Of a stretch of 64,000 bases of DNA, positions 22,359 to 34,138 are shown in pieces. The stretch is from Streptomyces sp. NL15-2K (GTDB taxonomy: Bacteria; Actinomycetota; Actinomycetes; Streptomycetales; Streptomycetaceae): NCBI RefSeq assembly GCF_030551255.1, contig NZ_CP130630.1:2895501-2959500 (forward strand), in the 5' to 3' direction. Position 1 is the first letter of the stretch. Every line of letters starts with the position of its first letter. The position numbers were made by a program, and so were the translations under genes. Under the pieces are notes generated by a model, which saw only the letters and a program-made list of their open reading frames with translations, did no database searches and had not been told where the DNA came from.

Positions 22359-23264
22359 CTACGCCCCGTACACCGCCCCCGGCACCTCCGCCTCCCCCAA
22401 CAGCTTCAGCACCGCCTCCCCCGCCTCCCCCGGCCCCCACCGCGCCCCCTTGTCGACCGTGGGTCCCGGGCGCCAGCCCTCCATGACCGTGATGCGGCCG
22501 CCCTCCGCCTCGAAGATCCGCCCGGTGACGCCGGCGCTCGCCGGGGAGCCGAGCCAGACGACGAGCGGGGAGACGTTCTCCGGGGCCATGGTGTCGAAGC
22601 CGGTGACGGGTGCGGCCATGGTGTCGGCGAAGGCGTGTTCCGTCATCCGGGTGCGGGCCGCGGGTGCGATCGCGTTGACCTGGACGCCGTATCGGGCCAG
22701 TTCGGCCGCCGCCACCAGCGTCAGCCCGACGATGCCGGCCTTCGCCGCGCTGTAGTTGCCCTGTCCCACCGAGCCGAGCAGCCCCGCTCCGCTGCTGGTG
22801 TTGACGATGCGGGCCCCGGGCGTGCGCCCCGCCTTGGTCTCGGCGCGCCAGTGTGCGGCGGCGTGTTTGAGGGGCAGGAAGTGTCCCTTGAGGTGGACGC
22901 GCAGTACGGCGTCCCAGTCGTCCTCGTCGAGGTTGACCAGCATTCGGTCGCGCAGGAAGCCGGCGTTGTTGACGAGGGTGTCGAGGCGGCCGTAGGTCTC
23001 CAGGGCGGTCCGGATCAAGGATGCGGCCCCTTCGCTCGTGGCGATGTCGCCGCCGTGCGCGACCGCTTGTCCGCCCGCCGCGCGGATGGTGTCCACCACC
23101 TGTCCGGCGGGGCTGTCGGCGCCCGGTGTGCCGTCGAGGCCGACGCCGAGGTCGTTGACGACGAGCCGGGCGCCCTCGGCGGCGAACGCGAGGGCGTGGG
23201 CGCGGCCGAGGCCGCGTCCCGCGCCGGTGACGACGACGACCCGGCCGTCGCAGATTCCGCTCAT
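22359..23264 (-). CDS. SDR-family dehydrogenase of the HIP steroid cluster (Rv3548c-like)
   Basis: 301 residues. Rossmann motif TGAGRGLG near the N-terminus, NNAG in the middle and the catalytic YSAAK. It is longer than simple SDRs because of a C-terminal extension resembling the dehydrogenase unit of multifunctional beta-oxidation enzymes. The position, last of two SDR genes divergent from an echA20-type gene, matches Rv3548c in the M. tuberculosis KstR2 regulon. It begins 1 bp after the upstream SDR stop, with GGAGGAG placed in that gene's end. The exact hydroxyacyl-CoA substrate is not known to me. Confidence 0.82.
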   Translation of the reverse strand: MSGICDGRVVVVTGAGRGLGRAHALAFAAEGARLVVNDLGVGLDGTPGADSPAGQVVDTIRAAGGQAVAHGGDIATSEGAASLIRTALETYGRLDTLVNNAGFLRDRMLVNLDEDDWDAVLRVHLKGHFLPLKHAAAHWRAETKAGRTPGARIVNTSSGAGLLGSVGQGNYSAAKAGIVGLTLVAAAELARYGVQVNAIAPAARTRMTEHAFADTMAAPVTGFDTMAPENVSPLVVWLGSPASAGVTGRIFEAEGGRITVMEGWRPGPTVDKGARWGPGEAGEAVLKLLGEAEVPGAVYGA

Positions 23265-23265
23265 C

Positions 23266-24018
23266 TCACTCCTCCATGTTGGGGTCGGCGTCGGCGGTTG
23301 CCGCGTCCAGGAACGCGGGCCGTTCTCCGCCGCCGTGTACGAGCAGGCTCGCCCCGCTGATGTAGGCGGCGGCCTCGGAGGCGAGGAAGACCGCGGCGGC
23401 GCCGATGTCGGCGGGTTCGGCGAGGCGGCCGAGCGGGACGGTGCGGGAGACGGCGTCGATGCCGTCCTCGTCGCCGTAGTGGAGGTGGGACAGTTCGGTG
23501 CGGACCATGCCGACGACGAGGGTGTTGACGCGGACCTCCGGTGCCCATTCCACGGCCATCGAGCGGGCGAGGTTCTCCAAGCCCGCCTTGGCCGCCCCGT
23601 AGGCGGCCGTCCCGGGTGACGGGCGGCTGCCGCTCACGCTGCCGATCATCACGACGGCGCCCCGGGTCCGCTTCAGGTGCTCGTACGCGGCGAGGGAGAC
23701 CGTCAGTGGTGCGAGGAGGTTGAGCTGGACGACCCGGGCGTGTCGCTCGGCGTCGGCGTCGGCCAGCAGCCGGTAGGGGGCGCCGCCCGCGTTGTTGACG
23801 AGGACGTCGACCTGGGGAAGAGCGTCGAAGAAGCGCCGGACCGCGCCTGCGTCCCGTACGTCCAACGGCATGAACTCGGTCTTGTCCACCGGCACCTCCG
23901 GGGCCCGGCGCGCGCAGATCACGACCTGGGCGCCCGCGCGCGCGAGGGAGCGCGCGATCCCGGCTCCGACCCCGCGGGTGCCGCCGGTGACGACGGCGAC
24001 CTTCCCGTCCAGCTCCAT
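23266..24018 (-). CDS. SDR-family dehydrogenase of the HIP steroid cluster (Rv3549c-like)
   Basis: 250 residues, classical SDR length. It has TGGTRGVGAG for NAD(P) binding, NNAGG, the catalytic serine in MIGSVSG and the YGAAK pair. It is the first gene of a two-gene minus-strand unit starting 55 bp from the divergent hydratase gene, and the palindromic operator at 24024-24063 lies in that gap. By position it corresponds to Rv3549c. Confidence 0.83.
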   Translation of the reverse strand: MELDGKVAVVTGGTRGVGAGIARSLARAGAQVVICARRAPEVPVDKTEFMPLDVRDAGAVRRFFDALPQVDVLVNNAGGAPYRLLADADAERHARVVQLNLLAPLTVSLAAYEHLKRTRGAVVMIGSVSGSRPSPGTAAYGAAKAGLENLARSMAVEWAPEVRVNTLVVGMVRTELSHLHYGDEDGIDAVSRTVPLGRLAEPADIGAAAVFLASEAAAYISGASLLVHGGGERPAFLDAATADADPNMEE

Positions 24019-24023
24019 TCGCT

Positions 24024-24063
24024 GCTACCTTCCACCTAACAAACGTTTGGTGGAAAGGTAGCT
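24024..24063. promoter_or_regulatory. KstR2-type operator in the divergent SDR/echA20 promoter
   Basis: An extended palindrome with arms GCTACCTT-CCACC and GGTGG-AAAGGTAGC around a core AACAAACGTTTGGT (24038-24051). The core agrees with the mycobacterial KstR2 motif A-n-CAAG-n-n-CTTG-n-T at the outer positions (A-n-CAA...TTG-n-T). A second, related site lies at 30374-30396. Both sit in the two divergent promoters of the cluster. Confidence 0.75.
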
Positions 24064-24072
24064 GATGCGCCC

Positions 24073-24864
24073 ATGGGTGTCTCCACCTCGTCCCAGGAAA
24101 ACTCGTCCCCGGAAGAGGGGGTTTCCGTCTCGTCCCCGGCTCCCGGGGTGTGCGCCGTCACCGTCGACTTCCCTCCGGTGAACGCGCTGCCGGTGGACGG
24201 CTGGTTCGCGCTGGCCGACGCCGTGCGCGCGGCCGGCCGGGACGCCGGGGTGCGGTGTGTGGTGCTGGCCGCCGAGGGGCGGGGGTTCAACGCGGGCGTG
24301 GACATCAAGGAGATCCAGGCGCGGGGGCAGGGGGCGCTGGTCGGCGCCAACCGCGGCTGCTTCGAGGCCTTCGCGGCGGTGTACGACTGCGAGGTGCCGG
24401 TGGTGGCGGCGGTGCAGGGCTTCTGCCTGGGCGGCGGCATCGGTCTGGTGGGGAACGCGGACGTGGTCGTGGCGAGCGAGGACGCCACCTTCGGGCTGCC
24501 CGAGCTGGACCGGGGAGCGCTGGGCGCCGCCACGCATCTGGCCCGGCTGGTCCCGCAGCACCTGATGCGGGCGCTGTACTACACCTCCCGCACGGTGAGC
24601 GCGGCCGAGCTGCATGGACACGGGTCGGTGTGGCGGGTGGTGCCGCGCGCCGGGCTGCGTGCGGCCGCGCTGGAGCTGGCCGGCGAGATCGCCGCCAAGG
24701 ACGGGGAGTTGGTCCGCCTGGCCAAGGCCGCCATCAACGGCATCGACCCGGTGGACGTGCGCCGCAGCTACCGCTTCGAGCAGGGCTTCACCTTCGAGGC
24801 CGGCCTCAGCGGCGTGGCCGACCGGGTCCGCGAAAGCTTCGGAAGGGAGCGTGCGGGTGACTGA
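24073..24864 (+). CDS. Enoyl-CoA hydratase/isomerase-family ring hydrolase (EchA20-like)
   Basis: 263 residues, crotonase fold. The oxyanion-hole motifs are RGFNAGVDIKE and CLGGGIGLVGNADVVVA. In M. tuberculosis the enzyme in this position, EchA20, opens ring D of a HIP-derived CoA thioester hydrolytically rather than hydrating a double bond. It is the first gene of the plus-strand run echA20-ipdA-ipdB-ipdC, directly under the KstR2-type operator. The ipdA start lies inside its last codons. Confidence 0.83.
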   Translation: MGVSTSSQENSSPEEGVSVSSPAPGVCAVTVDFPPVNALPVDGWFALADAVRAAGRDAGVRCVVLAAEGRGFNAGVDIKEIQARGQGALVGANRGCFEAFAAVYDCEVPVVAAVQGFCLGGGIGLVGNADVVVASEDATFGLPELDRGALGAATHLARLVPQHLMRALYYTSRTVSAAELHGHGSVWRVVPRAGLRAAALELAGEIAAKDGELVRLAKAAINGIDPVDVRRSYRFEQGFTFEAGLSGVADRVRESFGRERAGD

Positions 24865-25693
24865 CAAGACGATGACCGCCGACGAGGCCGTCTCCTGGCT
24901 GCACAGCGGCATGACCCTCGGCATCGGCGGCTGGGGCTCCCGCCGCAAGCCGATGGCCCTGGTCAGAGCGCTGCTCCGGGCGGAGATCACCGACCTGACC
25001 GTCGTGTCGTACGGCGGCCCGGACGTCGGCATGCTCGCCGCTGCCGGACGCATACGGCGGCTGGTCACGCCCTTCGTCACCCTCGATTCGATCCCGCTCG
25101 AACCGCACTACCGCGCGGCGCGCGAGCGGGGGGCCTTCGAGCTGATGGAGATCGACGAGGCGATGTTCATGTGGGGCCTGCACGCGGCCGCGAACCGGCT
25201 GCCCTTCCTGCCCGTGCGGGCCGGGACCGGTTCGGATGTGATGCGGGTCAACCCGGGCCTGCGGACGGTGACTTCGCCGTACGACGACGGGGAGACGCTC
25301 GTGGCCATGCCGGCGCTGCGCCTGGACGCGGCGCTGGTGCATGTGAACCGCGCGGACCGGCGGGGCAACGGCCAGTATCTGGGCCCGGACCCGTACTTCG
25401 ACGACCTGTTCTGCGAGGCGGCTCAGACCGCGTACGTCTCCTGCGAGCGGATCGTGGACACGGCGGAGCTGACGAAGGAGGCCGCGCCGCAGACCCTGCT
25501 GATCAAGCGCCACACGGTCACGGGTGTCGTCGAGGCGCCGAACGGCGCGCACTTCACGTCCTGCGCGCCGGAGTACGGCCGGGACGAGGCGTTCCAGAAG
25601 CGGTACGCGACCACGCCCTGGGCTCAGTTCGCGGCGCGGTTCCTGGGCGGGGACGAACAGGCGTACCAGTCGGCGATCAGGGAGGCGCCATGA
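24857..25693 (+). CDS. ipdA: CoA-transferase-like alpha subunit IpdA
   Basis: 278 residues from the GTG at 24857, preceded by GGGAG; it overlaps the echA20 end by 8 bp. The N-terminal GIGGWGSRRKPMALVRALLR is typical of class I CoA-transferase alpha subunits of the IpdA branch. IpdAB of Mycobacterium and Rhodococcus does not transfer CoA but hydrolyses ring C of a HIP-derived CoA thioester (COCHEA-CoA). It is coupled to ipdB by an ATGA overlap. The call depends strongly on the ordered context. Confidence 0.86.
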   Translation: MTDKTMTADEAVSWLHSGMTLGIGGWGSRRKPMALVRALLRAEITDLTVVSYGGPDVGMLAAAGRIRRLVTPFVTLDSIPLEPHYRAARERGAFELMEIDEAMFMWGLHAAANRLPFLPVRAGTGSDVMRVNPGLRTVTSPYDDGETLVAMPALRLDAALVHVNRADRRGNGQYLGPDPYFDDLFCEAAQTAYVSCERIVDTAELTKEAAPQTLLIKRHTVTGVVEAPNGAHFTSCAPEYGRDEAFQKRYATTPWAQFAARFLGGDEQAYQSAIREAP

Positions 25694-26409
25694 AGGGGGT
25701 CACCCGCGCCGAGTACTGCGTGATCGCCTGCGCCGAGGCCTGGCGTGACGCCGGGGAGATCCTGGCGAGCCCCATGGGCCTGATCCCGTCCATCGGCGCC
25801 CGCCTGGCCCGGCACACCTTCGCGCCGGACCTGCTGCTGACCGACGGCGAGGCGATGCTGGTGGGCGTCGACGGCACGGTCGAGGGCTGGCTGCCCTACC
25901 GGCAGCACCTCACCCTGGTCACCGGCGGCCGACGGCACGTGATGATGGGCGCGAGCCAGATCGACCGGTACGGCAACCAGAACATCTCCTGCATCGGCGA
26001 CTGGGCGCGGCCGAAGCGGCAGCTGCTCGGAGTGCGCGGGGCACCGGTCAACACGCTGAACCATCCGACCAGTTACTGGATCCCCAGGCACTCCCGGCGG
26101 GTCTTCGTCGAGCAGGTCGACATGGTGTGCGGAGTGGGGTACGACCGTGCTGCCGGCGCGCGTCATCACCGCATCCCGCGCGTCGTCTCCGACCTCGGCG
26201 TCTTCGACTTCGCCACCCCGGACCGCGCGATGCGGCTGGCCTCCCTCCATCCCGGGGTGACCGTCGAGAAGGTCAGGGAGGCGACGGGATTCACGCTCGA
26301 AGTTCCGGACGAGGTGCCGTACACCCGCGAACCGACAGCCGAGGAGCAGCGCCTGATCCGCGAGGTGATCGATCCGGAGAACGCCCGCGCGCGTGAGGTG
26401 GCGGAGTGA
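25690..26409 (+). CDS. ipdB: CoA-transferase-like beta subunit IpdB
   Basis: 239 residues. The ATG at 25690 overlaps the ipdA stop. Features are the N-terminal RAEYCVIACAEAWRDAGEILAS, LVTGGRRHVMMGASQIDRYGN and a C-terminal KVREATGFTLEVPDE as in CoA-transferase beta subunits. It forms the heteromer with IpdA that opens steroid ring C. A run of 14-bp tandem repeats separates it from the next gene. Confidence 0.86.
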   Translation: MKGVTRAEYCVIACAEAWRDAGEILASPMGLIPSIGARLARHTFAPDLLLTDGEAMLVGVDGTVEGWLPYRQHLTLVTGGRRHVMMGASQIDRYGNQNISCIGDWARPKRQLLGVRGAPVNTLNHPTSYWIPRHSRRVFVEQVDMVCGVGYDRAAGARHHRIPRVVSDLGVFDFATPDRAMRLASLHPGVTVEKVREATGFTLEVPDEVPYTREPTAEEQRLIREVIDPENARAREVAE

Positions 26410-26470
26410 TGGAGGCGGGATGGTGGCGGACTGATGGAGGCGGACTGATGGAGGCGAACTGATGGAGACC
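26408..26470 (+). repeat. 14-bp tandem repeats carrying serial SD-ATG units before ipdC
   Basis: Units GATGGAGGCGGACT-like begin at 26408, 26419, 26433, 26447 and 26461; the first is shortened to 11 bp and the last is partial. Each unit has a GGAGG-like sequence and an ATG; because 14 is not a multiple of three the ATGs change frame, and the inner ones stop after four codons. The final ATG (26462) starts ipdC. Confidence 0.85.
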
Positions 26471-27511
26471 GCGCTCACCCGGCTGGTCGGCGTCCGCCAC
26501 CCGATCGTGCAGACCGGGATGGGCTGGGTGGCGGGCCCGCGCCTGGTCTCGGCGGCGGCGAACGCGGGCGCGCTGGGCATCCTGGCCTCCGCCACGATGC
26601 CTCTGGACCGGCTGCGCGAGGCGATACGCGAGGTCGCCTCCCGTACCGACGCGCCGTTCGGCGTGAATCTGCGGGCGGACGCGGCGGATGCCGGGGACCG
26701 GGTGCGGATCATGATCGAGGAGGGGGTACGGGTCGCGTCCTTCGCCCTCGCGCCCTCCCCCGAGCTGATCACCGAGCTCAAGGAGGCGGGTGTCGTCGTC
26801 ATCCCCTCCGTCGGCGCCCGGCGGCATGCCGAGAAGGTCGCGGCGTGGGGCGCGGACGCGGTGATCGTGCAGGGCGGCGAGGGCGGCGGGCACACCGGCG
26901 AGGTCGCGACGACCGTGCTGCTGCCGCAGGTGGTGGACGCGGTGCGGATACCGGTCGTGGCGGCGGGCGGCTTCTTCGACGGGCGGGGCCTGGTCGCGGC
27001 GCTGGCCTACGGGGCGGCGGGCGTCGCCATGGGCACGCGGTTCCTGCTCACCTCGGACTCGACGGTGCCGGACGCGGTGAAGGAGCGGTATCTGGCGGCG
27101 ACGGTGAAGGACGTGACGGTGACGCGGGCGGTCGACGGGCTGCCGCACCGGATGCTGCGTACGGACCTGGTGGCCTCGTTGGAGAGCTCCAGCCGGGCGC
27201 GAGCCCTGGTGCACGCCGTCCGCAGGGCGGCCGGCTTCCGGAAGCTGTCCGGGCTGACCTGGCGGCAGCTGGTCCGCGATGGGCTCACGCTGCGGCACGG
27301 CAAGGACCTGACCTGGAGCCAGATACTGCTCGCCGCCAACACGCCGATGCTGCTGAAGTCGGCAATGGTGGACGGCCGTACGGATCTCGGCGTCATGGCC
27401 TCCGGGCAGGTTGCCGGGGTGATCGACGACCTGCCGTCGTGCGCGGAGCTGGTGGAGCGGATCATGAAGGAGGCGGACGACGTACGAGCGCGGCTCACAG
27501 CCTCTCGATGA
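26462..27511 (+). CDS. ipdC: FMN-dependent nitronate-monooxygenase-family enzyme IpdC
   Basis: 349 residues. A TIM-barrel flavoprotein of the 2-nitropropane dioxygenase family: IVQTGMGWVAGPRLVSAAANAG at the N-terminus, VQGGEGGGHTGE for substrate and FMN binding, and VVAAGGFFDGRG then AMGTRFLLT for FMN phosphate. In the HIP pathway IpdC is needed before ring opening and probably acts as a CoA-thioester reductase or dehydrogenase rather than on nitronates. The last six codons and the stop lie within a 53-bp duplicate of the convergent thiolase gene end, so its C-terminus was set by that duplication. Confidence 0.85.
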   Translation: METALTRLVGVRHPIVQTGMGWVAGPRLVSAAANAGALGILASATMPLDRLREAIREVASRTDAPFGVNLRADAADAGDRVRIMIEEGVRVASFALAPSPELITELKEAGVVVIPSVGARRHAEKVAAWGADAVIVQGGEGGGHTGEVATTVLLPQVVDAVRIPVVAAGGFFDGRGLVAALAYGAAGVAMGTRFLLTSDSTVPDAVKERYLAATVKDVTVTRAVDGLPHRMLRTDLVASLESSSRARALVHAVRRAAGFRKLSGLTWRQLVRDGLTLRHGKDLTWSQILLAANTPMLLKSAMVDGRTDLGVMASGQVAGVIDDLPSCAELVERIMKEADDVRARLTASR

Positions 27512-27547
27512 TCGTCACGTTCGCCTGCCCGCCGCCCTCGCACATGG
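27495..27547. repeat. 53-bp duplicate of the thiolase 3' end
   Basis: 27495-27547 is identical to 27662-27714 (both begin TCACAGCCTCTCGATGATCG and end CTCGCACATGG), offset 167 bp. The second copy is the real end of the thiolase gene on the minus strand; the first reaches into the 3' end of ipdC and supplies its stop codon. Confidence 0.93.
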
Positions 27548-27579
27548 GCACCATCCCCAACGGCCCCCTCGCACCGCTC

Positions 27580-27614
27580 GGCCCCTGAGGGGCCTCACAG
27601 GCTTCGGGAGCCTG
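27580..27614. terminator. Convergent double hairpin between ipdC and the thiolase gene
   Basis: GGCCCC-TGA-GGGGCC (27580-27594) is followed by CAGGCT-n5-AGCCTG (27598-27614), between the two copies of the 53-bp duplication and between convergent genes. Confidence 0.65.
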
Positions 27615-27661
27615 CGCCGGACTCCGTCCGCCGAAGTGGGGTGCTCGCGCCGTCGTCGCTG

Positions 27662-28819
27662 TCACAGCCTCTCGATGATCGTCACGTTCGCCTGCCCGCC
27701 GCCCTCGCACATGGTCTGGAGTCCGAACCGGCCGCCGGTGCGCTCCAGTTCGTGCAGCAGGGTCGTCATCAGCTTCACACCCGTCGCGCCCAGCGGATGC
27801 CCGAGCGCGATCGCGCCCCCGTTGACGTTGACCTTCTCCGGATCCGCTCCCGTCTCCTTCAGCCAGGCCAGCACGACCGGCGCGAAGGCCTCGTTGATCT
27901 CGACGAGGTCGATGTCGTCGATCGACAGGCCGGTCTTCTTCAGGGCGTGCGCGGTGGCCGGTATCGGCGCGGTCAGCATGCGGATGGGGTCCTCGCCGCG
28001 CACCGACAGATGGTGCACACGCGCGCGGGGCCGCAGCCCGTGGTCGCGCACCGCCCGCTCCGAGGCCAGCAGCATGGCCGCCGCGCCGTCGGAGACCTGC
28101 GAGGAGCAGGCGGCCGTGATCGTGCCGCCGTCGATGACCGGCTTCAGCCCGGCCATCTTCTCCAGGGAGGTGTCCCGGCGCGGCCCTTCGTCGACAGCCA
28201 CCTGCCCATGAGCCACGGTCTCCCGCTCGAAGCGCCCCTCGTCGATCGCCCGCAGTGCCCGCCGGTGCGACCGCAGCGCGAACTCCTCCTGGTCCTGCCG
28301 GCTGATACCCCACTTCGCGGCGATCATCTCTGCGCCGGCGAACTGGTTCACCGCCCGGTCCCCGTAGCGCGCCCGCCAGCCCTCGCTGCCCGCGAAGGGC
28401 CCCTCCGTGAAGCCCAGCGGCTCGGCGGCCTGCCGGGTCGCGAAGGCGATCGGGATCTGCGACATGTTCTGCACGCCCCCGGCGACCACCATGTCCTGCG
28501 TCCCGGACAACACGCCCTGCGCCGCGAAGTGCACGGCCTGCTGGGAGGAGCCGCACTGCCGGTCCACCGTCACGCCCGGCACCTCCTCGGGCAGTCCGGC
28601 CGCCAGCCAGCAGGTCCGCGCGATGTCCCCGGCCTGTGGCCCCACGGTGTCCAGACAGCCGAAGACGACGTCCTCCACGGCGGCCGGATCGACGCCGGCC
28701 CGCGCGACCAGCTCCTTGAGCACATGCGCGCCCAGGTCGGCCGGATGGACCCCGCTGAGTCCTCCCCCGCGCCGCCCGACGGGCGTACGGACCGCTTCGA
28801 CGATGTAGGCCTCGGCCAT
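27662..28819 (-). CDS. fadA6: Acetyl-CoA acyltransferase (thiolase), FadA6-like
   Basis: 385 residues from the ATG at 28819. The nucleophilic cysteine is in DRQCGSSQQAVHF, the histidine in NGGAIALGHPLGATG and the second cysteine in MCEGGGQANVTII. It cleaves beta-ketoacyl-CoA; in the KstR2 regulon FadA6 acts late, after ring C is opened. Between it and the regulator gene are four 16-bp tandem repeats. It is probably transcribed with the SDR and regulator genes from the promoter at about 30370. Confidence 0.87.
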   Translation of the reverse strand: MAEAYIVEAVRTPVGRRGGGLSGVHPADLGAHVLKELVARAGVDPAAVEDVVFGCLDTVGPQAGDIARTCWLAAGLPEEVPGVTVDRQCGSSQQAVHFAAQGVLSGTQDMVVAGGVQNMSQIPIAFATRQAAEPLGFTEGPFAGSEGWRARYGDRAVNQFAGAEMIAAKWGISRQDQEEFALRSHRRALRAIDEGRFERETVAHGQVAVDEGPRRDTSLEKMAGLKPVIDGGTITAACSSQVSDGAAAMLLASERAVRDHGLRPRARVHHLSVRGEDPIRMLTAPIPATAHALKKTGLSIDDIDLVEINEAFAPVVLAWLKETGADPEKVNVNGGAIALGHPLGATGVKLMTTLLHELERTGGRFGLQTMCEGGGQANVTIIERL

Positions 28820-28834
28820 GGCAACTCCCTCACA

Positions 28835-28898
28835 CAAAGGGGCCCGTGAACAAAGGGGCCCGTGAACAAAGGGGCCCGTGAACAAAGGGGCCCGTAAA
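28835..28898 (-). repeat. Four 16-bp tandem repeats between fadA6 and kstR2
   Basis: Unit CAAAGGGGCCCGTGAA repeated four times without a gap (28835, 28851, 28867, 28883); only the last differs, ending GTAAA. Each unit contains the palindrome GGGCCC. The array fills nearly the whole gap from the regulator stop to the thiolase start. Confidence 0.95.
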
Positions 28899-28902
28899 AG
28901 GG

Positions 28903-29514
28903 CTATTCGCGTACGGCGATCCCGTCCAGCACCATCGACAGGTACTGCCGGGCGATCTCCTCCGGGCTGTGCTGTCCGCCGGGCCGGTACCAGGACGCGG
29001 CGACCCACACGGTGTCGCGTACGAACCGGTAGGTGAGCCGGACGTCGAGGTCGGCCCGGAACACCTCGGCGGCGACTCCGCGCTCCAGCGTGGACAGCCA
29101 TGCCTTCTCGAACTTGCGCTGCGACTCGGCGAGGAACGCGAACCGCTCCTGCGCGACCAGCTGCTTGCTCTCCTTCTGGTAGATCGCGACGGCGGCGCGG
29201 TGCCGGTCGATCTCCCGGAACGACTCGGTGACCAGGGCTTCGAGGGTCTCGCGCGGGCCCAGCTCGGCGCCCAGGACGGCGTCGTAGCCGCCCCAGAGCT
29301 CGTCGAGGAAGGTCCGCAGGATCTCCTCCAGCATCGACTCCTTGGAGTCGAAGTGGTAGTAGAGGCTGCCCGCGAGCATGCCCGCGTGGTCCGCGATCTT
29401 GCGCACGGTGGTGGCGTTGTAGCCCTGTTCGGCGAAGACCTCGGCGGCGGTGGAGAGGAGTTCGCGACGGCGGGCGGGCGCGGCGGTCACCTGGGAGTTC
29501 TTCTTGATCGGCAC
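28903..29514 (-). CDS. kstR2: TetR-family repressor, KstR2-like
   Basis: 203 residues from the GTG at 29514; the longer frame upstream runs through tandem repeats and is unlikely to be translated. The HTH (about 15-60) is AAEVFAEQGYNATTVRKIADHAG then GSLYYHFDSKESMLEEIL. The ligand domain ends RFVRDTVWVAASWYRPGG and QYLSMVLDGIA, close to the mycobacterial KstR2 end as I recall it. KstR2 is relieved by HIP-CoA. The two related palindromes at 24024-24063 and 30374-30396 are the expected operators. Confidence 0.85.
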   Translation of the reverse strand: MPIKKNSQVTAAPARRRELLSTAAEVFAEQGYNATTVRKIADHAGMLAGSLYYHFDSKESMLEEILRTFLDELWGGYDAVLGAELGPRETLEALVTESFREIDRHRAAVAIYQKESKQLVAQERFAFLAESQRKFEKAWLSTLERGVAAEVFRADLDVRLTYRFVRDTVWVAASWYRPGGQHSPEEIARQYLSMVLDGIAVRE

Positions 29515-29532
29515 GGTTCCATTGTCGTCCTG

Positions 29533-29590
29533 GTTGCTTCTAGGGGTGCTGGGCTGCTTGTAGGGGTGCTGGCTGCTTCTAGGGATGCTG
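29533..29590 (-). repeat. Three 19-20 bp tandem repeats before kstR2
   Basis: Units GTTGCTTCTAGGGGTGCTGG (29533), GCTGCTTGTAGGGGTGCTG (29553) and GCTGCTTCTAGGGATGCTG (29572). The array begins 19 bp from the kstR2 start and ends within the last codons of the SDR gene; one unit supplies that gene's TAG stop. Confidence 0.88.
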
Positions 29591-30364
29591 GCTGCTGACG
29601 GAGACGATCTCACCCGTCATGTACGAGGAGTAGGACGAGGCCAGGAACACGATCACGTTGGCCACCTCCCACGGCTCGGCGTACCGCCCGAAGGCCTCGC
29701 GTTCGGTGAGTTCCTGAAGCAGTCCGGGGCTCGTCACCTTCACCAGGTGCGGATGCATGGCGAGGCTGGGCGACACCGCGTTGACCCGCACGCCGTACTC
29801 GGCCGCCTCCACGGCCGCGCACCGGGTCAGCGCCATGACGCCGGCCTTGGCGGCGGCGTAGTGCGCCTGCCCGGCCTGGGCGCGCCAGCCGACGACGGAG
29901 GCGTTGTTGACGATCACGCCGCCGCCGGTCTCCTTCATGCGACGCAGTGCGGCCCGCGTGCACCGGAAGGTGCCGTTCAGCGTCACATCGAGCACCCGCG
30001 ACCACTGTTCGTCGGTCATGTCGACGAGGGCCGAGGTGCCGCCGAGACCGGCGTTGTTGACGACGACGTCCAGCCGCCCGTGCTCGCGTACGGCCGTGTC
30101 GAACAGCGCCCGCACCTGTGTCTCGTCGGTGACATCGCAGGGCAGTGCCGACACCGCGCCCGGGAAGTCCCGGCCCAGCTCGGCCTCGTACTCCTTGAGC
30201 CGCCGCGTGTGCGCGTCGCTGATCAGCACGCGTGCGCCCTCCTCGAGGAAGCGGCGGGCACTCGCCCCGCCGATCCCGGCACCCGCGGCTGCCGTGATGA
30301 CGGCGGTACGTCCTTTGAGCAGTCCGTGCCCGGGTGTGTACGCCGGACTCTCGACGCCTGTCAT
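29579..30364 (-). CDS. ipdF: SDR-family 5-hydroxy-steroid-CoA dehydrogenase (IpdF-like)
   Basis: 261 residues from the ATG at 30364. It has TAAAGAGIGGASARRF, NNAGLGG, the catalytic serine in NNASVVGW and YAAAK. Gene order (kstR2 just downstream, acyl-CoA dehydrogenase divergent) matches Rv3559c, called IpdF, which oxidises the 5-hydroxyl group of reduced HIP-CoA. It is first in a minus-strand unit ipdF-kstR2-fadA6. Confidence 0.83.
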   Translation of the reverse strand: MTGVESPAYTPGHGLLKGRTAVITAAAGAGIGGASARRFLEEGARVLISDAHTRRLKEYEAELGRDFPGAVSALPCDVTDETQVRALFDTAVREHGRLDVVVNNAGLGGTSALVDMTDEQWSRVLDVTLNGTFRCTRAALRRMKETGGGVIVNNASVVGWRAQAGQAHYAAAKAGVMALTRCAAVEAAEYGVRVNAVSPSLAMHPHLVKVTSPGLLQELTEREAFGRYAEPWEVANVIVFLASSYSSYMTGEIVSVSSQHP

Positions 30365-30373
30365 AGGGCCACG

Positions 30374-30396
30374 CTAACCTACCAAACACTTGTTAG
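30374..30396. promoter_or_regulatory. KstR2-type operator in the divergent ipdF/ipdE1 promoter
   Basis: Arms CTAAC (30374-30378) and GTTAG (30392-30396) flank the core ACCAAACACTTGTT (30381-30394), which fits A-n-CAA-n-n-n-CTTG-n-T, one position short of the mycobacterial KstR2 consensus. It lies in the 48-bp gap between two divergent genes. Confidence 0.72.
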
Positions 30397-30412
30397 GGAA
30401 GGATGGTCATCG

Positions 30413-31552
30413 ATGGATCTCGCCTTCGCCCCGCAGGACGAGGCCTTCAGGGCCGAGGCCCGCGCCTGGCTGGAGGCCCATGTGCCGGCCGTGCCCCTGC
30501 CCTCCCTGGAGACGGAGGAGGGTTTCGCGGCGCACCGCGCGTGGGAGGCCGAACTGGCCGCGGACCGCTGGTCGGTGGTGAACTGGCCGGCCGCGTACGG
30601 CGGGCGGGACGCGGGGCTGCTCCGCTGGCTGGTCTTCGAGGAGGAGTACTACGCGGCGGGCGCGCCGGGCCGGGTCGGCCAGAACGGCATCAGCCTGCTC
30701 GCGCCGACCCTCTTCGACCACGGCACCGAGGAGCAGCGGGCGCGCGTGCTGCCGCCCATGGCCCGGGGTGAGGTGATCTGGGCGCAGGCGTGGTCGGAAC
30801 CGGAGGCGGGCTCGGACCTGGCGTCGCTGAGGTCGAAGGCCGTCCGCGCACCGGGGGGCTGGCGCTTGAGCGGGCAGAAGACCTGGTCGTCGCGTGCGGC
30901 GTTCGCGGACCGCGCGTTCGGCCTGTTCCGCAGCGAGTCACGGGCCCCGAAACCGCACCAGGGGCTGACCTATCTGATGTTCGACCTGCGTGCCCCAGGT
31001 GTCACGGTCCGCCCGATCGCCCGCCTCGACGGCAAGCCCGCCTTCGCCGAGCTGTTCCTGGACGAGGTGTTCGTGCCGGACGAGGACGTGATCGGGGAGC
31101 CCGGCCAGGGCTGGCGGGTGGCGATGGCCACGGCGGGCAACGAGCGCGGGCTGATGCTCCGCTCCCCCGGCCGCTTCCTGGCGGGCGCCGACCGGCTGTT
31201 CCGGCTCTGGCGGGCCGAGGGCAGCCCGCAGGACACGGAGGACCGCGTGGCCGACGCCCTGATCGGCGCCCGCGCCTACCAGCTGTTCACTTACGCCGCC
31301 GCCTCCCGCTTCCTCGACGGCGCCTTGCTGGGCCCGGAGTCCAGCCTGAACAAGGTCTTCTGGTCGGAGTACGACATCGCGCTGAGCGAGACGGCCCTCG
31401 ATCTCCTGGGCGCTCAGGGCGAGGCGGCGGACACCGACTGGTCGCAGCGGTACGTCTTCGCCCTCGCCGGCCCCATCTACGCGGGCACGAACGAGATCCA
31501 GCGGGACATCATCGCCGAGCGGCTGCTCGGCCTGCCGAAGGGGCGCCGCTGA
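30413..31552 (+). CDS. ipdE1: Acyl-CoA dehydrogenase, FadE30/IpdE1-like
   Basis: 379 residues from the ATG at 30413 with GGAAGGA upstream. It has the flavin and substrate segment EVIWAQAWSEPEAGSDLAS, the C-terminal GAQGEAAD region and YAGTNEIQRDIIAERLLGLP. By position it matches Rv3560c (FadE30). Actinobacterial steroid degraders use pairs of unequal ACAD subunits that form alpha2beta2 enzymes with one FAD site per pair; the next gene, with an ATGA overlap, is the evident partner. Confidence 0.85.
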   Translation: MDLAFAPQDEAFRAEARAWLEAHVPAVPLPSLETEEGFAAHRAWEAELAADRWSVVNWPAAYGGRDAGLLRWLVFEEEYYAAGAPGRVGQNGISLLAPTLFDHGTEEQRARVLPPMARGEVIWAQAWSEPEAGSDLASLRSKAVRAPGGWRLSGQKTWSSRAAFADRAFGLFRSESRAPKPHQGLTYLMFDLRAPGVTVRPIARLDGKPAFAELFLDEVFVPDEDVIGEPGQGWRVAMATAGNERGLMLRSPGRFLAGADRLFRLWRAEGSPQDTEDRVADALIGARAYQLFTYAAASRFLDGALLGPESSLNKVFWSEYDIALSETALDLLGAQGEAADTDWSQRYVFALAGPIYAGTNEIQRDIIAERLLGLPKGRR

Positions 31553-32511
31553 TGCGTTTCCTCCTCGACGCCGAGCAGCGCGCGTTCGCCGACTCGCTGG
31601 ACGCGATGCTGACGGCCGCGGACACGCCGTCGGTGGTACGGGACTGGAGCCGGGGCGAGCAGGCGAGCGGACGCGCGCTGTGGAGCCGTATCGCGGAGGC
31701 GGGCGTGTTCGCGCTGGCGGTACCGGAGGTGTACGAGGGGCTGGGCCGGCGGCCGGTGGAACTGGCGGTCGCCTTCGTGGAGTTGGGGCGGCACGCGGTA
31801 CCGGGACCGCTGGTCGAGACGGTCACGGCGGCCGCGCTGCTCACCGAACCGGGCCCCGCCAAGCGGCTGCTGCCCGCGCTCGCCTCGGGCGAGGCCATGG
31901 CGACAGTGGCGCCCTCGGGGTCGTACGCCCTGGACGGCGACGCGGCGACCACGCGCCTCGCCCTGACCTCCGACGGCCTGCGCCTCGCCCCCGGCCACGG
32001 TCCGGTGCGCCGCTGTCTCGACCCCGCCCGCCGCCTCACCCCCCTCACACCCGGCGGCGAACTCCTCGTCCCCCACCCTCCCGTCGCCCACGCCCTCACC
32101 ACCGCCCGCCTCACCACCGCCGCCCAGGCCCTCGGCGTGGGTCTCGCCCTCCTCGACAGGACCGTGGCGTACGTGAAGCAGCGCTCGCAGTTCGGCGTGC
32201 CCATAGGCTCGTTCCAGGCCGTCAAGCACCGGCTGGCCGACGCGAAGATCGCCCTGGAGTTCGCGCGTCCCCTGGTCTTCGGGGCCGCGCTGAGCATGAG
32301 CCCCGCCGAGGTGGCCGCCGCCAAGGTCGCCGCGTGCGAGGCGGCGTACGCCACCGCCCGTACGGCACTCCAATTGCACGGCGCGATCGGCTACACGGCG
32401 GAGTACGACCTGTCACTGTGGCTGACCAAGGCCCGCGCCCTGCGTTCCGCCTGGGGAAGTCCGCGGGAATGCCGGAACGTCGTCGTCAGTGCCCGTGATC
32501 GCCGCTGGTGA
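31552..32511 (+). CDS. ipdE2: Acyl-CoA dehydrogenase partner subunit, FadE33/IpdE2-like
   Basis: 319 residues, shorter than a full ACAD (about 380), because parts of the middle FAD-binding domain are reduced. It has YVKQRSQFGVPIGSFQAVKHRLAD and ALQLHGAIGYTAEYDLSLWL of the C-terminal domain. Overlap with the upstream gene and the unequal sizes fit a heterotetrameric IpdE1-IpdE2 enzyme. Its 3' end overlaps the convergent cytochrome b gene by 26 bp. Confidence 0.83.
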   Translation: MRFLLDAEQRAFADSLDAMLTAADTPSVVRDWSRGEQASGRALWSRIAEAGVFALAVPEVYEGLGRRPVELAVAFVELGRHAVPGPLVETVTAAALLTEPGPAKRLLPALASGEAMATVAPSGSYALDGDAATTRLALTSDGLRLAPGHGPVRRCLDPARRLTPLTPGGELLVPHPPVAHALTTARLTTAAQALGVGLALLDRTVAYVKQRSQFGVPIGSFQAVKHRLADAKIALEFARPLVFGAALSMSPAEVAAAKVAACEAAYATARTALQLHGAIGYTAEYDLSLWLTKARALRSAWGSPRECRNVVVSARDRRW

Positions 32512-34138
32512 GCTCCCGGTACTCCTCCACCGTCGGCTTCTCGATCCGCGTGTCGGGCCCGAACATGGCCCGGGACAGCCGGGCGCGCAGCCGCTGCGAC
32601 CGCTTGACCCGGCGGCGGACGCCGCCCGCGTCGACGAGCGGCCCGATCTCGTACGGCGGGTTCTGCTCGTGCTGGGTGAGGGTGAACAGCTGTTCCTGCG
32701 CGAGGGGTTCGTGGATCTCGACGTACTCGCCGTTCGGCAGCCGTTTGATGGTGCCCGTCTCCCTGCCGTGCAGCACCTTGGCCCGGTCCCGGCGCTGCAG
32801 GCCCAGACAGATCCGTTTGGTCACGATGAAGGCGAGGACCGGCACCACGAAGACCGACACCCGCACGAACCAGGTGATCGCGTTGATGGACAGGTGCAGA
32901 TGCGTGGCGACGATGTCGTTGCCGCCGCCGATCAGCAGCACGCAGTACAGGCTCAGCCAGGCCACGCCGAGGCCGGTGCGCACGGGCGCGTTGCGCGGCC
33001 GGTCCAGGATGTGGTGCTCGCGTTTGTCGCCGGTGATCCATGCCTCGATGAAGGGATACACGCCGATGGCGAGCATGACCAGCGGGAACAGCGCGAAGGG
33101 GATGAACACGCCCAGCGCCAGCGTGTGGCCCCAGAGGTTGATCTCCCATCCCGGCATCACCCGGATCAGTCCCTCGGAGAAGCCGAGGTACCAGTCGGGC
33201 TGGGCGCCGGTGGTGACAAGGTCGGACCGGTAGGGGCCGAAGGCCCACACGGGGTTGATCTGGGCGATGCCGCCCATCAGCGTCAGGGTGCCGAAGACGA
33301 GGAAGAAGAAGCCGCCCGCCTTGGCCATGTAGACCGGCAGGAAGGGCATCCCGACGACCGACTTCTCGCCCCGGCCGGGCCCCGGGTACTGGGTGTGCTT
33401 GTGGTAGAAGACCAGGATCAGGTGCGCGGCCACCAGGCCCAGCATGATCCCGGGCAGCAGCAGCACATGGATCGGGAAGAGCCGCGAGATGATGTCGTGC
33501 CCCGGGAACTCTCCTCCGAAGAGGAAGAAGGACAGGTACGTCCCCACGATCGGGACGGACAGGATGGCGCCCTGGGCGAAGCGGATGCCGGTGCCGGACA
33601 GCAGGTCGTCGGGCAGGGAGTAGCCGGTCAGGCCGGTGATGATGCCCAGCATCAGCAGGGTCCAGCCGAACAGCCAGTTGACCTCGCGCGGCTTGCGGAA
33701 GGCGCCGGTGAAGAACACCCGCATCATGTGCGTGAGCATGGCGGTGACGAACACCAGGGCGGCCCAGTGGTGGATCTGCCGGATCAGCAGCCCGCCGCGC
33801 ACGTCGAAGCTGATGTCCAGCGTGGACTCGAACGCCCTGGTCATGATCACGCCGTTGAGGGGCTCGTACGAGCCGTGATAGACGACCTCGACGCTGCTCG
33901 GCTCGAAGAACAGGGTGAGATAGACGCCGGTCAGGATCAGGACGACGAAGCTGTAGAGGGCGACCTCGCCCAGCATGAAGGACCAGTGATCCGGGAAGAC
34001 CTTGCGCATGTTGGCCTTGGCCAGCGCGTAGAGGCCGAGCCGTCCGTCGGCCCAGTCGGCGAGCTTCTCGCCCTTCCCGGGAGGTTCCCTGCGGGCGGCA
34101 CGCGCCGTCACGTTCACCGATCGTGCGCCGTCGTCCAT
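32486..34138 (-). CDS. Cytochrome b subunit of a bc1 complex (QcrB paralogue, orphan)
   Basis: 550 residues from the ATG at 34138. It has eight to nine membrane helices with the two haem-ligand pairs in RQIHHWA/LTHMMR and FPIHVLLLPG/LVAAHL, and the quinol-site motif PDWY (in QPDWYLGFSEG), the actinobacterial form of PEWY. Neither a Rieske protein (QcrA) nor a cytochrome c (QcrC) gene is nearby, so this is not the main qcrCAB operon. It could replace QcrB under some condition or serve another redox chain. Confidence 0.88.
   Translation of the reverse strand: MDDGARSVNVTARAARREPPGKGEKLADWADGRLGLYALAKANMRKVFPDHWSFMLGEVALYSFVVLILTGVYLTLFFEPSSVEVVYHGSYEPLNGVIMTRAFESTLDISFDVRGGLLIRQIHHWAALVFVTAMLTHMMRVFFTGAFRKPREVNWLFGWTLLMLGIITGLTGYSLPDDLLSGTGIRFAQGAILSVPIVGTYLSFFLFGGEFPGHDIISRLFPIHVLLLPGIMLGLVAAHLILVFYHKHTQYPGPGRGEKSVVGMPFLPVYMAKAGGFFFLVFGTLTLMGGIAQINPVWAFGPYRSDLVTTGAQPDWYLGFSEGLIRVMPGWEINLWGHTLALGVFIPFALFPLVMLAIGVYPFIEAWITGDKREHHILDRPRNAPVRTGLGVAWLSLYCVLLIGGGNDIVATHLHLSINAITWFVRVSVFVVPVLAFIVTKRICLGLQRRDRAKVLHGRETGTIKRLPNGEYVEIHEPLAQEQLFTLTQHEQNPPYEIGPLVDAGGVRRRVKRSQRLRARLSRAMFGPDTRIEKPTVEEYRELTSGDHGH

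Follow-up and report, generated by a model that had tools for sequence, protein, structure and literature searches.

How does a Streptomyces come to carry genes for degrading the C and D rings of steroids in a genome in which no genes for rings A and B are found? The question is raised by an eleven-gene cluster at positions 22359–32511 of a 64,000-nucleotide stretch of Streptomyces sp. NL15-2K (contig NZ_CP130630.1, positions 2,895,501 to 2,959,500 of the forward strand); we refer to this whole stretch as the window. A first-pass annotation, made from the letters of the DNA, described the cluster as an ordered KstR2-type regulon for methylhexahydroindanedione propionate (HIP), the steroid C/D-ring intermediate, a description that is well supported by the gene order, by conserved residues of IpdAB and by KstR2-type operators. 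We consider it fairly likely that the cluster belongs to a hydrindane (C/D-ring) pathway that is widespread, stands alone and is split over two co-inherited loci, the cluster being the half under KstR2 control.

Genes were identified using Pfam and NCBIfam family scans, sequence matches to the PDB, and identity between loci. The reference loci were L045, L047 and L057, which we take to be of mycobacterial origin. Open reading frames are present throughout the cluster, as follows (SDR, short-chain dehydrogenase/reductase; ACAD, acyl-CoA dehydrogenase; NMO, nitronate monooxygenase):

22359–23264, minus strand: SDR of the Rv3548c type (PRK07791, 490.9 bits, over the cut-off)
23266–24018, minus strand: second SDR (SDR2), of the Rv3549c type (PRK07856, 373.5 bits, over the cut-off; 56–58% identical to the gene in the same position in L045, L047 and L057)
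24073–24864, plus strand: echA20, ring D hydrolase type (PRK07938, 403 bits, over the cut-off; 63–66% to the three loci)
24857–25693, plus strand, start approximate: ipdA (6co6_A, E = 1e-98)
25690–26409, plus strand: ipdB (6co6_B, E = 8.3e-85)
26462–27511, plus strand: ipdC, NMO/FabK-like flavoenzyme (PF03060, 298.5 bits; 69–72% to the three loci)
27662–28819, minus strand: fadA6 thiolase (PRK07801, 704.9 bits, over the cut-off; 65–68% to the three loci)
28903–29514, minus strand, GTG start inferred: kstR2, TetR repressor (4w97/4w1u, E = 4.5e-56; 2ibd, 1.2e-66; 46–50% to the three loci)
29579–30364, minus strand: ipdF, SDR (PRK07831, 449.3 bits, over the cut-off; 62–63% to the three loci)
30413–31552, plus strand: ACAD1, fadE31 ortholog (identity to the FadE31 position, and tree)
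31552–32511, plus strand: ACAD2, fadE32 ortholog (identity to the FadE32 position)

From SDR2 to ipdF, eight genes are arranged in L045, L047 and L057 in the same order and orientation as in the window, with identities of 46–72%. The first SDR would lie beyond the ends of these three stretches; in L046 its counterpart (62%) adjoins SDR2, and Rv3548c and Rv3549c are neighbours in the published gene tables (PMC5380842, PMC3068626). Nine of the eleven genes, from the SDR pair to ipdF, thus match the mycobacterial order and orientation, as the first-pass annotation had it. The signature of IpdAB is also retained: in alignments to the PDB, IpdA keeps the Glu that is Ala in 6coj, and IpdB has Gly at the CoA-transferase Glu position (6co6_B), the replacement described for the ring hydrolase IpdAB (PMC5380842). 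Among the 80 best named Streptomyces loci, 58 have the same eleven-gene order, and several of the remaining 22 are cut by contig ends.

Control by KstR2 is indicated by two predicted operators, both sequence matches, in divergent promoters:

24038–24051, no strand: predicted KstR2-type operator A, AACAAACGTTTGGT, in the 54-bp promoter between SDR2 and echA20
30381–30394, no strand: predicted KstR2-type operator B, ACCAAACACTTGTT, in the promoter between ipdF and fadE31

Gel-shift tests of the published motif, AnCAAGnnCTTGnT, cover three sites in M. tuberculosis (PMC3068626). Our pattern, AnCAARnnYTTGnT, was relaxed after inspection of both divergent intergenic regions; it occurs at three places in the 12.4 Mb genome, against 13 for the reversed pattern, and two of the three are the divergent promoters of the cluster. 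On a scoring matrix these reach 39.1 and 35.4 and the third site 4.5, although the matrix was trained on related sites, so that the two high scores are not independent. Of the first 19 bases of its flank, operator B shares 17 (counted by hand) with the Rv3560c/Rv3561 site examined by gel shift; in mycobacteria that site is flanked by fadE30 and fadD3, both of which are gone beside operator B. In the named Streptomyces loci, site A is complete in 62 and matches at 13 of 14 positions in 7 of the 69 in which it could be measured, while site B is complete in 73 and one base off in the other of 74. Over all 92 loci scanned, 85 have site A at 13–14 of 14 positions. Both operators occur in L045, L047 and L057, and L046 has site A; in all seven measured loci from other families, none of which has a kstR2 match, site A is absent (best 10–11 of 14).

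The last two genes had been read as the IpdE1–IpdE2 pair, which corresponds to FadE30 and FadE33 (PMC8708139), and the ordered match had been carried through to Rv3560c. Neither statement survives. In L045, L047 and L057, ACAD1 is 61–62% identical to the gene in the FadE31 position and 38% to that in the FadE30 position, while ACAD2 is 48–50% identical to FadE32 (three loci) and 34% to FadE33 (the two loci that reach it). A 46-row tree, which carried a warning about long branches that meet between the FadE31 and FadE30 groups, joins ACAD1 to FadE31 (100/98) and separates it from the FadE30 group (100/99). The pair therefore corresponds to Rv3562–Rv3563, FadE31 and FadE32, and the match does not extend through Rv3560c. 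PDB searches with both ACADs gave distant matches only, and an identification of 6wy8 (Tcur3483/Tcur3481) as IpdE1–IpdE2 was rejected. It follows that fadE30, fadE33 and fadD3 are all absent from the cluster; these are the genes to which the KstR2-locus gene table assigns HIP activation and the first dehydrogenation of the side chain (PMC5380842).

The first-pass annotation concluded that either the activating step is encoded elsewhere or the input is already a CoA thioester; the genome search for fadD3 supports the former. The FadD3 query has three matches at E ≤ 1e-90, all outside the cluster. The best (C1:5098322–5099932; 54%, 523 bits) is a reciprocal best hit: searched back, its top mycobacterial match is the KstR2-locus fadD3 in three of three mycobacterial genomes. 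The FadE30 query has a single match at the same cut-off (C1:5131449–5132522, 60%), in a gene at C1:5131446–5132594 that is likewise a reciprocal best hit with three mycobacterial genomes. The two genes lie within 35 kb of each other in a region, locus 2 (C1:5.087–5.140 Mb), that is 2.2 Mb from the window cluster. Between and beside these two genes, locus 2 encodes a second AMP ligase and two ACADs resembling a pair of the FadE30/FadE33 type, together with an SDR, crotonases, a thiolase, an amidohydrolase and a cyclase-family protein; two reductases, one F420-dependent and the other a flavin reductase, and a major facilitator superfamily transporter are also present. This content is largely kept in three other Streptomyces genomes. 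A hidden fadD3 under KstR2 control was rejected on the operator scans; the ortholog at C1:5098322 has no KstR2 site in the stretches scanned. Locus 2 includes a TetR regulator with a PF19352 C-terminus (L087:1035–1682), which is 89–94% identical across the three other Streptomyces and is a candidate regulator of the locus. Elsewhere in the same genome, a second catabolic region (C1:11.695–11.775 Mb; L093–L096) has two more FadD3-like ligases (48% and 53%), FadE30-like and FadE33-like ACADs and a FadA6-like thiolase (54%).

We then asked how the two loci are distributed over 101 Streptomyces genomes, that of the window included. ipdB is found in 76, in 75 of them at 72% identity or more, and no internal stop occurs in ipdB among the 76 matches. 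The KstR2 regulator and the operators are present wherever closely examined, except in G481; the ipdB of this genome (L106, 61% identical to that of the window) lies in a locus with another gene arrangement and may have been acquired separately. Given this wide presence, the retained gene order and the near-invariance of operator B, we regard it as very improbable that the cluster is a decaying relic of a steroid pathway, despite the missing upper genes and the loss of fadE30, fadE33 and fadD3 from the cluster.

The markers of locus 2 closely follow ipdB. FadD3 (best match 51–57%) is found in 73 of the 76 genomes with ipdB, FadE30 (E ≤ 1e-90) in 71 and the second ligase (E ≤ 1e-120) in 75, against two of the 25 genomes without ipdB in each case. 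The two marker-positive genomes without ipdB, G396 and G471, have assemblies that are 79% and 78% complete. On a tree of GltB from 100 genomes (G471, which has no GltB match, was left out), ipdB is absent from 15 all-negative clades, with 14 parsimony changes; the three markers are likewise absent from 14 of these clades, the fifteenth being G396. Likelihood ratios for dependent over independent change, from one gene tree and a home-made fit, are 73.8 (ligase), 66.2 (FadD3) and 63.7 (FadE30), compared with 10.0 (p 0.04) for an HsaC-like control. The FadD3 ortholog and the second ligase are 28–72 kb apart (median 41.5 kb) in the 43 listed genomes that have both on one contig; G430, in which a 58% ligase match that may be a paralogue lies 2.8 kb from the FadD3 ortholog, was left out.

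The copies of fadE30 fall into two classes, which are complementary. Of the genomes with ipdB, 57 have only the locus-2 class, nine only a class at 67–70%, five both and five neither. The 67–70% class, present in 14 genomes, lies within 14 kb of ipdB in 13 and at 53 kb in G417. For the other class (47–62%), 60 genomes have the gene and the second ligase on a single contig; the two are 6.6–15.1 kb apart in 57 of these and 27–37 kb apart in three (in four more they are on different contigs), so that this class is the locus-2 gene. It occurs in five of the 14 genomes that have the 67–70% class and in 57 of the 62 other ipdB genomes (Fisher p = 2e-5, uncorrected for kinship).

These results bear on whether the two loci work together at all. 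The window cluster alone might act on a substrate at the level of methylhexahydroindanone carboxylate (HIC), which has no propionyl chain, with locus 2 an unrelated catabolic locus that merely shares its ecological distribution; the absence of all three side-chain enzymes from the cluster and the lack of KstR2 sites in locus 2 would both fit. We nevertheless think this improbable, because two of the missing enzymes have their reciprocal best hits in locus 2, the absences coincide in 14 of 15 clades, and the FadE30 copies are complementary.

As to the substrate, no match to KshA at E ≤ 1e-50 or to HsaC at E ≤ 1e-40 was found in the genome (kstD and mce4 were not searched genome-wide); the first-pass annotation had noted the absence of upstream ring A/B genes locally. 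KshA with HsaC, the pair that marks 9,10-seco steroid degradation, is thus not found. KshA occurs in eight of the 101 genomes; these eight also have HsaC (49% or above), and all of them are among the 14 with the 67–70% fadE30. In a further nine genomes, of which eight have ipdB, the best HsaC-like match is weaker (39–44%) and KshA is absent. KshA is therefore missing from 68 of the 76 genomes with ipdB. We observed one genome, G478 (L076, L077), in which KstD, HsaABCD, KshAB, the C/D cluster, fadE30 and FadE33-like and FadD3-like genes are on one contig.

The input of the pathway is probably either HIP from other steroid degraders or the product of an upper route of another kind. Use of HIP shed by other degraders is the simplest account, and Streptomyces rubescens is said to form metabolites from HIP, going by the title alone of a 1977 paper by Hashimoto and Hayakawa; locus 2 is large enough to allow for a different substrate. 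In that case both loci would form one pathway in which locus 2 takes a streptomycete or plant polycycle to a hydrindane resembling HIC-CoA, which the window genes then open. Such a pathway would account for the tight co-inheritance and for a locus 2 richer than HIP needs, with its two AMP ligases, ACADs, thiolase, amidohydrolase, cyclase-family hydrolase, F420-dependent reductase, flavin reductase and transporter. It would also fit the many ipdB genomes without KshA, and the fact that all eight genomes with KshA and HsaC carry the extra 67–70% fadE30 instead, seven of them within 14 kb of ipdB. On the other hand, orthology links FadD3 and FadE30 to HIP enzymes and KstR2 to the HIP-CoA sensor, and operator B is close to the mycobacterial operator. 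We rate this alternative as rather unlikely. With similar reserve we suggest that in most Streptomyces the two-locus pathway might lead to a HIP/HIC-type hydrindane-CoA with no need of KshA and HsaC, the oxygenases of the 9,10-seco route, the starting material being a natural polycycle whose role as a substrate has yet to be recognised. If so, steroid degradation would be one use of a general hydrindane module made up of KstR2 and the C/D-ring enzymes.

In the two-locus HIP pathway that we favour, the FadD3-orthologous CoA ligase of locus 2 would activate HIP or a close analogue, and the propionyl side chain would be shortened by the IpdE1 (FadE30)-type ACAD of locus 2 together with crotonases, SDR and thiolase. 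HIP-CoA would release KstR2 from operators A and B; since the ligase is outside the KstR2 regulon, the inducer can form before derepression. IpdF and IpdC would form the enone, EchA20 would hydrolyse ring D and IpdAB then ring C, FadA6 would cleave the IpdAB product, and FadE31–FadE32 would dehydrogenate 4-methyl-5-oxo-octanedioyl-CoA (MOODA-CoA) on the way to propionyl-CoA and succinyl-CoA. The activities are assigned by analogy with mycobacterial and rhodococcal work (PMC5380842). We infer the ligand, the substrate and its origin in HIP shed by other degraders, and steroid-derived HIP is proposed for a genome with no KshA or HsaC at our thresholds.

Several points weigh against this pathway, whose support comes from sequence. 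The exact published core CAAGnnCTTG does not occur in the window, whose sites need R/Y at two positions, and no KstR2 site scoring above 4.2 was found in the locus-2 stretches scanned. The FadE33 candidate of locus 2 is 39% identical to FadE33 and 38% to ACAD2, and so is no clear ortholog, and the enzymes of locus 2 outnumber those needed for removal of the HIP side chain. In the survey, the ligase match at 58–59% in G430, G442 and G480 may be a paralogue, and excluding these leaves 72 of 76; G414 has the cluster and none of the three locus-2 markers, and FadD3 is also absent from G403 and G488. Finally, the tree for co-inheritance was built from one gene.

The C/D-ring half is thus found in about three quarters of the sampled Streptomyces genomes, commonly without the A/B half, and its entry enzymes are encoded at another locus, which is inherited together with it and is not under KstR2 control. 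This points to a division of labour in the turnover of steroids in soil, or to a substrate that nobody has named. The ligase at 5.098 Mb, FadE30 at 5.131 Mb and ipdAB in the window are the genes with which to test it.

Short tandem repeats, perfect or nearly so, lie between genes of the cluster: 16 bp × 3.9 at 28834–28895 (the fadA6/kstR2 gap), 19 bp × 3.5 at 29530–29596 (the kstR2/ipdF gap) and 14 bp × 5.1 at 26400–26467 (the ipdB/ipdC junction). A gene named from its sequence as a QcrB-like cytochrome b (32486–34138) overlaps the end of fadE32 on the opposite strand, and has a relative in 36 of the 80 named loci.

The KstR2 regulon has been described for M. tuberculosis, M. smegmatis and R. 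jostii by Kendall 2010 (PMC3068626) and Crowe 2017 (PMC5380842); there, the SDR pair, echA20, ipdABC, fadA6, kstR2, ipdF and fadE31–fadE32 have the order and orientation seen here, and KstR2-type operators likewise lie in two divergent promoters. The window cluster differs from these descriptions in having no fadE30, fadD3 or fadE33, with the ligase outside the regulon; in having kstR2 behind ipdF and two operators found rather than three; in having operators with A or T at positions that are G or C in the published core; and in that no ring A/B genes were found. C/D clusters apart from A/B genes are also described for Amycolatopsis mediterranei and Thermomonospora curvata (Bergstrand 2016, PMC4810484), which are identified there as steroid-pathway genomes, unlike the genome of the window without KshA and HsaC. 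The same survey, which as described required both proteins, reports that 55 of the 57 Streptomyces genomes it covered lack a steroid pathway, and would therefore miss the present one; our searches of the openly licensed PMC literature showed no description of a Streptomyces C/D cluster that stands alone. In Saccharopolyspora hirsuta, as described in PMC8708139, fadD3 is likewise outside the cluster, but fadE30 and fadE33 are kept in it and A/B-ring genes are present. The steroid cluster of Streptomyces G478 has the same core as that of the window, with the addition of fadE30, FadE33-like (39%) and FadD3-like (47%) genes and, unlike it, shares its contig with KstD, HsaABCD and KshAB.

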